Assembly: GCA_903920455.1 (NCBI GenBank)
Contig: CAIXLY010000035.1
Span: 1 to 64,000 of the forward strand
DNA length: 64,000 nucleotides
Origin: an uncultured bacterium
GTDB taxonomy: Bacteria > Bacteroidota > Bacteroidia > Chitinophagales > Chitinophagaceae
Direction: 5' to 3'
The notes beneath the pieces are model-generated. The model had not been told where the DNA came from, did not search any database, and worked only from the letters and a program-made list of their open reading frames with translations. Positions within the stretch are counted from its first letter, which is position 1. Each line of letters begins with the position of its first letter. Positions 60,017-64,000 of this stretch are shown here, piece after piece. The position numbers and the translations under genes are program-made.

Positions 60017-60853
60017 CTACAGCATATTCAACTGCGTTCTTACCAAAGCCTTTGCAGCAACCCAGGCTTTATGGTAATTGTTAATGCGAATTCGCTCTTC
60101 CAGAATACGCTGGGGCTTAACAGCCCTTATCTTTTTAAAAAGACTCAAATAATATTTATATGCTAAGTATACACCAAATCTTGATTTTAAAGGAAGCCTT
60201 AAGATAGCGTGATAGGCATTATCGAAATCATTAGCAATATCATCTTCGATATTATTTTTCATTTCGTTTGTGAAGGCATTGAAATCAACTCCAGGAAAGT
60301 AAACTCTATTTAACTGCTGATAGTCGGCCTTTACATCCCGAAGAAAATTTACTTTTTGGAAAGCTGCACCAAGTGATTGTGCACCAGGCCTGAGGGTTTC
60401 GTACTGCGATTGATCGCCATCACAAAAAACATAGAGACACATCAGACCAACGACTTCAGCACTTCCGTATATGTATTCTGCATATCCACTTGCGTCATAC
60501 TTTGCTTTATCAAGATCGAATTCCATACTCTTGAAGAAGGCTTCGATAAGCGCAAGATCAATGTGATACTTATTTACAGTACGCTGAAAACTTTGAAGAA
60601 TTGGATTCAAGCTAATTCCTCTTTGTATAGAAGCATAAGTCTCGAGTTTGAAATCAGCCAATAGCTGCGACTTGTCATGATCATGAAATGTATCTACAAT
60701 CTCATCTGCAAATCGGACAAATCCATAGATATCATAAATGGGGCCTTGGATATCGCGGTGCAACAATTTTATTGCACTGCTAAATGAAGTACTGTATCGT
60801 TTTGTTGTAACGCGACTGCATTCGTGGGACACTTCATGAAAAACTGAAATCAT
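60017..60853 (-). CDS. crtB: Phytoene synthase (squalene/phytoene synthase family)
   Basis: YGFVRFADEIVDTFHDHD; AFQKVNFLRDVKADYQQLNRVYFP. Confidence 0.95.
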   Translation of the reverse strand: MISVFHEVSHECSRVTTKRYSTSFSSAIKLLHRDIQGPIYDIYGFVRFADEIVDTFHDHDKSQLLADFKLETYASIQRGISLNPILQSFQRTVNKYHIDLALIEAFFKSMEFDLDKAKYDASGYAEYIYGSAEVVGLMCLYVFCDGDQSQYETLRPGAQSLGAAFQKVNFLRDVKADYQQLNRVYFPGVDFNAFTNEMKNNIEDDIANDFDNAYHAILRLPLKSRFGVYLAYKYYLSLFKKIRAVKPQRILEERIRINNYHKAWVAAKALVRTQLNML

Positions 60854-60895: not shown

Positions 60896-62380
60896 CTATG
60901 CCCTATCTGCTGCGTTAGCATTAATTAATTTGGCTACTACTTCTCCGCTAATCAAACTTGGGGGAACACCAGGACCAGGAACAGTTAACTGCCCTGTGTA
61001 ATATAAGTTTTTGACTTTCTTACTCACACAAGACGGTTTTAAAACAGCGGTTTGCATCAACGTGTTTGCCAAACCGTATGCATTTCCTTTGAACGCATTA
61101 TAATCACCAACAAAATCAGTATAAGAATATGCTCTTTTATAAACAATATGCGCTCGTATATCTACTCCAGTTCTTTCAAGCAAACGATCTGCAAGCACAT
61201 TGAAGTAATGTTCTCTCACTTCCTCAGAATCTCCATCAAGACCGGCTGCAATTGGGATGAGAAAAAATAGATTTTCACTTCCTTCAGGAGCTTGCGTTTG
61301 GTCAGTCACAGATGTTGCGCTTAAATAAAATAATGGTTCTTTAGGCCATGCGGGTGATGTGTATATTTCATCGGCATGATTTGCAAAGGGAACATCAAAG
61401 AACAGAGAATGATGTTGAATTCCTGGTATTTTTGTATTTATGCCTACATAATAAATCAATGAACCTGGCGCCATTACTCGCTTATCCCAATAAGAATCAG
61501 AATATGCCCTATATTCTTTTTGAAGGAGTTTTGTCTCAATAAAATGATAATCTGCAGCCCCTACAATTACATCTCCTTGTATTGTTTGTCCATCATGCGT
61601 TGATATGGATCTTGCAGTTCCTCCCTCAACATTGATGGCAGTTACTGTTTGATTAAAATGAAATTTAACTCCCTTTTCAAGGGCAAGCTTATGCATTCCT
61701 TCTACAATTTTATACATGCCTCCACGGGGAAACCATGTTCCCAATTTAATATCTGCATAATTCATCAGGCTATACAGTGCAGGTGTGTTTTCCGGCAAGG
61801 CCCCTAGAAATAAAACTGGAAACTCCATCATCTGACGAAGCTTTGGATGCTTAAAATATTTTCCGATATGCGCTTTGATATTATTAAAAACATCAAGCCT
61901 GAAAAGTCCCGCAATCAATTCCTTATCAAGAAATTCTAACAACGACTGTCCTGGTTTGAATACAAGTTTATGTACACCAACTCTGTACTTGTATTCAGCT
62001 TCCTTCATGAATGCATCGAGTTTATCCCCAGCACCAGGCTCTAACTGGTCAAACATATTTTTTAATTCCTCATAGTTTGCAGGAACATCCATGTGGTCTT
62101 CTTCCCAATAAATTCTATAAGAAGGATCCAGCCTGATTAACTCGTAGTAGTCAGTAACTTGTCGCCCGAAACTTGAGAAGTATCTTTCGAATATATCCGG
62201 CATCCAATACCAGCTCGGTCCCATATCAAATGTAAATCCATCGGTCTTAAAATGCCTAGCTCTGCCACCTGGGTGGTCATGCTTTTCAACAACATGAACG
62301 TCCCATCCCATTGAAGACAAGAAAGTGGCTGCGGAGAGACCTGCAAATCCGCTTCCGATAATTACGGCTTTTTTTGACAC
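60896..62380 (-). CDS. crtI: Phytoene desaturase
   Basis: AVIIGSGFAGLSAATFLSSMGWDVHVVEKHDHPGGRA; C-terminal LYYTGQLTVPGPGVPPSLISGEVVA. Confidence 0.95.
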   Translation of the reverse strand: MSKKAVIIGSGFAGLSAATFLSSMGWDVHVVEKHDHPGGRARHFKTDGFTFDMGPSWYWMPDIFERYFSSFGRQVTDYYELIRLDPSYRIYWEEDHMDVPANYEELKNMFDQLEPGAGDKLDAFMKEAEYKYRVGVHKLVFKPGQSLLEFLDKELIAGLFRLDVFNNIKAHIGKYFKHPKLRQMMEFPVLFLGALPENTPALYSLMNYADIKLGTWFPRGGMYKIVEGMHKLALEKGVKFHFNQTVTAINVEGGTARSISTHDGQTIQGDVIVGAADYHFIETKLLQKEYRAYSDSYWDKRVMAPGSLIYYVGINTKIPGIQHHSLFFDVPFANHADEIYTSPAWPKEPLFYLSATSVTDQTQAPEGSENLFFLIPIAAGLDGDSEEVREHYFNVLADRLLERTGVDIRAHIVYKRAYSYTDFVGDYNAFKGNAYGLANTLMQTAVLKPSCVSKKVKNLYYTGQLTVPGPGVPPSLISGEVVAKLINANAADRA

Positions 62381-62394
62381 AGTGGAAAGTTAAT

Positions 62395-62895
62395 CTAAAA
62401 CTTGTTGATTTGGTTTTTCAGCAACCTTCTCGCAAAGTGAATTCGACTCTTGATTGTTCCAAGAGGTTCATTCAACATGTCTGCAATTTCATGGTATTTG
62501 TAGCCTTCGAAGTATAATACAAAAGGCTGCTTGAATATAGTGGGCAACTGGTAGATTGCTTGGTTGATGTCCTTCATCCTCATATTCGTTTCTGCTGTGT
62601 TTGGAACAGCAGATTGATTATGGTCTAGGAGAAACTCATTTGGGCTGTTATCGAATATCGTGTTCTGCTTTGACTTCCGACGATAGTTATTGATGAATAT
62701 ATTGCGCATGATGGTATACAACCATGCTTTGATATTAGTGCCTACACTGTATTTTTCTTGATTGGATAATGCCCTAAACATCGTTTCCTGCAAAAGGTCT
62801 TTAGCAGACTCTTGATCTTTAGTCAATGTCACCGCAAAAGGCCTTAGGTATTCGGAGTTTTGGAGGAGCAACTGGTTGAATTCTTGTGTAGACAT
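62395..62895 (-). CDS. ECF-type RNA polymerase sigma factor
   Basis: DLLQETMFRALSN; IKAWLYTIMRNIFINNYRR; HEIADMLNEPLGTIKSRIHFARRLLK; ATG 62895 (MSTQEFNQ) preferred because the ORF start at 62934 lies in the operator region. Confidence 0.93.
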   Translation of the reverse strand: MSTQEFNQLLLQNSEYLRPFAVTLTKDQESAKDLLQETMFRALSNQEKYSVGTNIKAWLYTIMRNIFINNYRRKSKQNTIFDNSPNEFLLDHNQSAVPNTAETNMRMKDINQAIYQLPTIFKQPFVLYFEGYKYHEIADMLNEPLGTIKSRIHFARRLLKNQINKF

Positions 62896-62901
62896 AGAAT
62901 T

Positions 62902-62934
62902 TTGTTTAAGTGTTGATAGATCAAATTTAAACAA
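62902..62934. promoter_or_regulatory. Putative operator site 1: TTGTTTAA-N17-TTAAACAA
   Basis: Perfect 8-bp inverted repeat (10-bp arms TTTTGTTTAA/TTAAACAAAA), spacer 17 bp. Confidence 0.7.
62922..62929 (-). promoter_or_regulatory. Putative Bacteroidota -7 element TAAATTTG (TANNTTTG) for the ECF sigma gene; candidate -33 TTG at 62952..62954
   Basis: Reverse complement of caaattta; TTG located 22 bp upstream (slightly longer than usual spacing). Confidence 0.4.
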
Positions 62935-62956
62935 AAATGGAATAGGCCGACCAAAT

Positions 62957-62989
62957 TTGTTTAATATTTTATATATTATACTTAAACAA
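62957..62989. promoter_or_regulatory. Putative operator site 2: TTGTTTAA-N17-TTAAACAA
   Basis: Same arms and same 17-bp spacer, centre-to-centre distance 55 bp from site 1. Confidence 0.7.
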
Positions 62990-63015: not shown

Positions 63016-63897
63016 TTAGGCTAATTCAGTGATGAATTCGGTAACTTCTTGAAGGGACCGCTTAAAATGAATCTGTGAGGGGAGTTTTTTCTCGTAATTA
63101 GCAGCGAGTCTGCCTGAGATGATGAGGGGGACTGTTCCAAAGCGGTTGAGCGACTGATGGATAAACTTATCAAAATTAAAAACGCTGGATACTGAGGTGA
63201 GGTGGGTATATATGAAGTCGGGCTTCTTATGTTTTAGAACATATTCAACATCTTCCAAAGGCACATTGGCTCCAAGGTAGAGCACATAAAGTCCCCTGCT
63301 CTTTAATAAATATTGGATAAAGAGGAGGCCAAGTTCATGGTATTCTCCTTCTGGAAGGAATAAAAGGCCGGTTTTTTTCAGTTGAAACATCGGAGTTACA
63401 GCTTCAGTTCCAACGATTAATTTCTGTCTGATGATATTTGAAACCAGGTGTTCCTGGGCAGGATTGATATGGCCCGTAATCCAAAGCACTCCAATTCTTT
63501 CCATGAAAGGAAAGATAATTTGGTGAATGGTCTTTTCGATGCCCTTTGCATTGATATGCTCCTCAAGACTATTCTCAAATCCCTCTAGATCCATGTCTAT
63601 CATTGACTGAATCAAGGAGTTTACAATCCGTTCTTGTTGGGCTTGTATATTATTGATTGAAAGAATCTTAGAGGTGATATCATCGTTCGACATCTTATCA
63701 ATGTGCGAAATCTTGAATCCATATTTATTAAGAAGAGAGATATTCAGAATCTTTTTCAGTTCCTCATTATTGTAATACCGGATGTTGGTATCCGTCCTTT
63801 GTGGCTTTAAAAACCCATAACGCTGCTCCCAAATTCGGATGGTGTGGGCTTTTATCCCTGTTAAATTCTGCAAATCTTTAATGGTAAATGCGTTCAT
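63016..63897 (-). CDS. MerR-family regulator with C-terminal cobalamin-binding domain (CarH/LitR-type)
   Basis: TIKDLQNLTGIKAHTIRIWEQRYGFLKPQRT (MerR HTH); W-ITGHINPAQ-EH (Wx9EH) and GEYHELG in the B12-binding region. Confidence 0.92.
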   Translation of the reverse strand: MNAFTIKDLQNLTGIKAHTIRIWEQRYGFLKPQRTDTNIRYYNNEELKKILNISLLNKYGFKISHIDKMSNDDITSKILSINNIQAQQERIVNSLIQSMIDMDLEGFENSLEEHINAKGIEKTIHQIIFPFMERIGVLWITGHINPAQEHLVSNIIRQKLIVGTEAVTPMFQLKKTGLLFLPEGEYHELGLLFIQYLLKSRGLYVLYLGANVPLEDVEYVLKHKKPDFIYTHLTSVSSVFNFDKFIHQSLNRFGTVPLIISGRLAANYEKKLPSQIHFKRSLQEVTEFITELA

Positions 63898-64000
63898 CGT
63901 GATAATAACGCCTAATTAGCTGAATTGTTTAACAGCAGTAGGGAAGATAAGCCAGGAGCTTAGTCAAAAGGAAATCTAAAACTGTTGCTCCAATACTTTA

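Follow-up and report, generated by a model that had tools for sequence, protein, structure and literature searches.

Two palindromes of identical architecture, TTGTTTAA-N17-TTAAACAA, lie side by side between the gene for a CarH-like regulator and the gene for an ECF sigma factor, and they are best read as operators of that adjacent regulator, a MerR-B12 protein predicted to act as a light- and B12-responsive repressor. Judging from the sequences compared here, the probability of this reading is roughly 0.8. The two sites, called P (proximal) and D (distal) with respect to the sigma gene, belong to a cluster which on the minus strand runs in the order CarH-like regulator, ECF sigma factor, crtI and crtB. 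Its features within the window, that is, the whole 64,000-nucleotide stretch of DNA analysed, are as follows.

63905..63932, minus strand: candidate promoter of the regulator gene (TTAAACAATT ... GTTAT), tentatively of ECF type, holding a lone half-site; AACAATT and GTTAT are conserved in the genus
63016..63897, minus strand: CarH-like regulator with MerR DNA-binding and B12-binding domains (Pfam, phmmer), proposed binder
62957..62989, no strand: D, predicted distal operator, exact match to the palindrome, abutting the candidate -33 region
62952..62954, minus strand: candidate -33 TTG between P and D, 25 bp before the TA of the -7 element
62922..62929, minus strand: candidate Bacteroidota -7 element TAAATTTG, within P and overlapping its left arm, in the sense of the sigma gene
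62902..62934, no strand: P, predicted proximal operator, exact match to the palindrome
62395..62895, minus strand, ATG at 62893-62895: ECF sigma factor, first gene of the operon (Pfam Sigma70_r2, r4_2)
60896..62380, minus strand: crtI-type phytoene desaturase (CrtID; NCBIfam NF058655, 731 bits for a cut-off of 640)
60017..60853, minus strand: crtB-type phytoene synthase (Pfam SQS_PSY, E=1e-38)

The paired palindromes and the candidate promoters around them

Both palindromes sit in the 120-bp gap between the regulator and sigma genes, and P stops 6 nt short of the sigma ATG. A sequence-only reading of this DNA had proposed two sites with the same arms, N17 spacers and a separation of 55 bp; both are indeed exact matches, and 55 bp is the distance from the left arm of P to the left arm of D. 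It had also held that two copies make a chance origin in AT-rich DNA less likely. At up to one mismatch P and D are the sole matches in the window, where shuffled windows lead one to expect 0.01, and the shuffles of orthologous regions described below agree, so chance is ruled out. The genome-wide search that the same reading had called for returned no other copy at ≤1 mismatch in the 2.3 Mb assembly, and thus no wider regulon in this genome at that threshold; at ≤2 mismatches, one further match appeared, with two mismatches and inside a gene.

Compared with the -33/-7 promoter consensus of the Bacteroidota, the sites fall on a predicted promoter of the carotenoid genes. As had been claimed, one site covers a -7-like element and the other stands beside a TTG: TAAATTTG lies inside P, whose left arm provides the TA of the element, and the TTG is found between P and D. 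The motif TAnnTT[TC][AG] overlaps P at the same position in 61 of 66 relatives, and many of them, though not all, have a TTG at 22-25 bp ahead of the TA. No clear common motif was found in the sigma-crtI gaps.

Upstream of the regulator gene, a lone TTGTTTAA at 63925-63932, which reads TTAAACAA on the carH strand, had been noted as a half-site. The sequence is there, but its standing as a third operator half-site did not hold up, as what the genus conserves upstream of carH is AACAATT, about 14 nt, and then GTTAT just before the ATG, and not the full TTAAACAA arm. Nor is a single copy of the 8-mer unusual, as the window has 9 of them against 5.6 expected. The lone half-site is better read as a piece of what would be carH's own promoter. 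Since AACAATT and GTTAT resemble the -35/-10 pair of an ECF promoter, the sigma factor may in turn drive carH, in a negative feedback; this is a guess, and a loop is possible because the ECF sigma factor is the first gene of the putatively repressed operon. A genome-wide search with the ECF-like promoter of carH showed neither enrichment nor a link to other genes. Several Flavihumibacter records have a full palindrome before carH instead, this genus combining P with a carH palindrome; Sediminibacterium has P and D.

Conservation and identity of the half-sites

Conservation was assessed in a genus set of 26 loci, our own included, where the region upstream of sigma could be read, and in a wider set of 80 named relatives (Chitinophagaceae and allies) plus further families, with 73 non-redundant sigma upstream regions from the order and dinucleotide shuffles as background. 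At ≤2 mismatches, P is present in 26/26 genus loci and D in 24/26, with arms kept while the spacer sequences diverge widely, and where both sites occur their left arms are 54-56 bp apart. Conservation upstream of orthologous clusters, which had been proposed as a check, extends to the order: at the same threshold P is found in 66/73 regions, D in 54/73 and both in 48/73, when shuffles give 0.6 regions with any palindrome. Some family members carry only P or only D. In most relatives P is 5-7 nt from the ATG, and the distance between P and D in the 73-region set is 54-57 bp. By clade (L226-L230, L232, L239), this distance takes values of 44, 52, 55-57 or 63-64 bp, which differ by about a helical turn.

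The "exactly 17-bp" spacer of the sequence-only reading describes both local sites, but it is not a rule: spacers in relatives are 16 or 17 bp long, both lengths occurring within the genus, and 17 is thus the local value. The letters of TGTTTA and TAAACA show 97-100% conservation in P sites of the N17 type, and the spacer keeps the promoter letters and little else. The spacer of D in family loci has a symmetric TTTT-n4-AAAA core, an 11-bp step inward from each arm and absent from P, possibly made of degenerate half-sites or a bend.

Additional exact matches in relatives lie mostly within a conserved coding gene and are otherwise scattered. Those in the coding gene, seen in several genus members (L177:2101-2133, L162, L163), are probably a coding coincidence. 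A palindrome also occurs at varying positions upstream of a hemD-like gene in 4/30 genus members (L161:2527-2559, L168:1420-1452, L178:2119-2151, L258); from its sequence, we take this gene to resemble uroporphyrinogen-III synthase. The hemD-associated palindrome is absent from our genome.

What, then, do the arms look like? Characterised CarH operators are built from an 11-bp unit, nnnnTnnACAn (PMC9304148), also given as nAnnTnnACAn (PMC8156234). All four arms of P and D contain TAAACA, a perfect TnnACA; A is favoured at position 2 of the unit (163/240 arms), and the 33-bp N17 site has the length of three such units. The half-sites are inverted, ACA facing outward, with cores 25 bp apart here and 24-25 bp apart in relatives. 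Of the 73 regions, 52 have TGTnnA followed by inverted TnnACA at a distance of 25 bp and 30 have the pair 24 bp apart, for less than 1 in shuffles. Tandem TnnACA at 11 bp occurs in 0/73 regions (1.25 in shuffles), which rules out hidden 11-bp direct repeats as the operator layout. The palindromes are therefore read as CarH half-sites in a new, inverted layout, and as predicted operators; a point against this reading is the layout itself, unlike the tandem repeats of characterised CarH proteins.

The candidate binder and its rivals

The regulator has a MerR domain followed by B12-binding domains: Pfam MerR_1 and B12-binding_2 score above their cut-offs and B12-binding slightly below its curated one. 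By phmmer, residues 3-220, covering the DNA-binding and cobalamin domains, match Thermus thermophilus CarH (5c8d) with E=5e-23. The capping motif W-x9-EH and the lower-ligand motif E/D-x-H are both present, and their residues W139, E149-H150 and H187 are invariant in 147 sequences from the genus, the family and the crt-linked set. The score against the NCBIfam CarH equivalog NF052513 is 109.5 bits for a cut-off of 400, hence the name CarH-like. In T. thermophilus CarH, the residue after the tryptophan, His132, has a part in the photoproduct. This position is I, V, M or L in the genus, so the photochemistry may differ from that of T. thermophilus, and a histidine four positions past the tryptophan is invariant in the family. 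The genome encodes a cobalamin adenosyltransferase.

Within the genus, 33/37 genomes have the sigma factor, and the four others have no carH or just a 42-residue fragment of it; as the two genes always go together, the binder is unassignable from the genus alone. Loci beyond it are more telling, and show the sites to be conserved across the class Bacteroidia. At L157, where carH is followed by crtI with no sigma gene, an exact palindrome lies 4 bp before carH. In the f25 family (L238-L248), where no sigma gene separates carH from crtI, palindromes run over the start codon of carH, and in many species a second one lies immediately before crtI. In L242:1459-1490, L238, L240, L243 and L245 the right arm includes this start codon (ATGAACAAT, or its variant with TTG), so the predicted operator extends into the coding sequence. 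At loci with carH and the sigma gene in divergent orientation (L146, L173, L223), the palindromes are between both genes. At order and phylum level, palindromes were sought up to 200 bp ahead of carH and up to 300 bp past it: 30/34 crt-linked loci beyond the genus have one nearby at ≤2 mismatches (shuffles, 0.2). Among carH-like loci without recognised crt or sigma genes, a site at ≤1 mismatch is present in 3/15, always directly before carH, and lacking in 12/15. The recognition helix (KAHTIRIWEQRY) and the wing (RTDTNIR) are near constant across the crt-linked set, and in six paralogues without a good palindrome the wing differs, ending in HR. Palindromes placed at carH and crtI in sigma-less families of the Bacteroidia point to the CarH-like MerR-B12 protein, and not to sigma, as the likely binder, and of all candidates it is the best. 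The earlier proposal that the sites are the neighbouring regulator's operators over the sigma promoter thus gains support from conservation, the TnnACA match, the overlap with the -7 element (61/66) and the sigma-less loci.

In most relatives P keeps a fixed place close ahead of the sigma ATG. This, together with the co-occurrence of sigma and carH in the genus, could also suggest that the ECF sigma factor itself binds the palindromes, or that they are its own promoter elements in an autoregulatory arrangement. This is highly improbable: the palindromes persist at carH and crtI with no intervening sigma gene (L157, L240-L248), loci which lead us to reject sigma as binder, inverted repeats are not what ECF promoters are, and a good -7 element for the primary sigma factor, TAnnTTTG, overlaps P. 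An unrelated transcription factor encoded elsewhere is unlikely as well, if not to the same degree. The few palindromes at other genes in some species, such as the hemD-like gene (4/30), would suit it, but the sites track crt-linked carH through families and changes of synteny, most carH-like genes with no recognised crt or sigma gene next to them have none (12/15 at ≤1 mismatch), and the core of the sites is the CarH half-site. Least probable of all is that P forms an RNA hairpin in the 5′ leader, acting as an attenuator or in translation control. P does fold better than shuffles (-7.2 kcal/mol, z -3.3), but D, which lies upstream of the promoter, does not (z -0.5), and the arms are fixed letters and not co-varying pairs, with just 4 symmetric changes. 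Located at the -7 element, the left arm of P should moreover stay untranscribed from the sigma promoter. A search of Rfam for an RNA element or riboswitch gave no credible match, and with D unfolded such an element was rejected.

A subtler alternative keeps the CarH-like protein on the sites but removes light and B12 from its control, the protein being either constitutive or, like CarA, countered by an antagonist protein. In favour of this, Myxococcus xanthus CarA retains a B12 motif but works without B12 (PMC8156234), and descriptions of its operator give two inverted repeats (PMC9304148); in our regulator, His132 is not conserved. The capping and ligand residues are however invariant in every crt-linked CarH examined, and an adenosyltransferase is encoded in the genome, so that we hold this alternative to be rather unlikely, while giving it real weight.

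Predicted mechanism and significance

The binding, the repression and the dependence on light and B12 that we infer for the CarH-like regulator would run as follows. D ends at the predicted -33 region, and P would span the -7 element along with the position where transcription should start. By analogy with CarH, the repressor would be on DNA in the dark, with adenosylcobalamin, and from either site it would block RNA polymerase carrying the primary sigma factor at sigma-crtI-crtB. Light would break the Co-C bond of the cobalamin and release the repressor; once it is released, sigma, CrtI and CrtB would be made together and carotenoid synthesis turned on. The near-constant spacing between P and D may reflect promoter geometry and not bridging by a tetramer, since it is also set by the -33/-7 distance; the values of other families (44, 52, 55-57 and 63-64 bp) favour neither. 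We put forward more tentatively, as a model somewhat short of an even chance, that CarH-type repressors of the Bacteroidia read inverted half-site pairs, that both palindromes may be held together across the ECF sigma promoter by a tetramer or by two dimers, and that light first makes sigma, which would shape later expression, including that of the repressor.

MerR-family operators, such as those of MerR, CueR and TnrA/GlnR, are also inverted repeats over promoter elements. Classical sites of this family are shorter, about 17-20 bp, and are bound by an antiparallel coiled-coil dimer, whereas the palindrome here covers 31-33 bp. The CarH proteins of T. thermophilus and Bacillus megaterium share with our system the domain order, the cobalamin-contact residues, TnnACA and an operator over a carotenoid-gene promoter. 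Their operators, however, are 3-4 tandem 11-bp direct repeats, in contrast to the inverted half-sites, 24-25 bp apart in two separate palindromes, seen here. M. xanthus CarA does have two inverted repeats at its promoter, one upstream of the -35 and one overlapping it, bound cooperatively by two dimers (PMC9304148). That operator totals about 55 bp around the -35, whereas the present one would take up 88 bp, extending across the -7 element and start site, and its first target would be an ECF sigma gene, unlike that of CarA. Work on CarH operators in Myxococcales and reviews describe direct repeats for CarH and two inverted repeats for M. xanthus CarA (PMC9304148, PMC8156234), and no description of a Bacteroidota CarH operator was found in the open-access literature.

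If the operator reading is true, a second arrangement of the DNA-binding heads on the same half-site is open to this photoreceptor family, and is used class-wide. Light-regulated carotenoid synthesis would then be predicted in a very large bacterial group, for which no such study was found in the literature searched. The palindrome would offer a ready binding motif with which to find light regulons in Bacteroidota, as well as new parts for green-light optogenetics.
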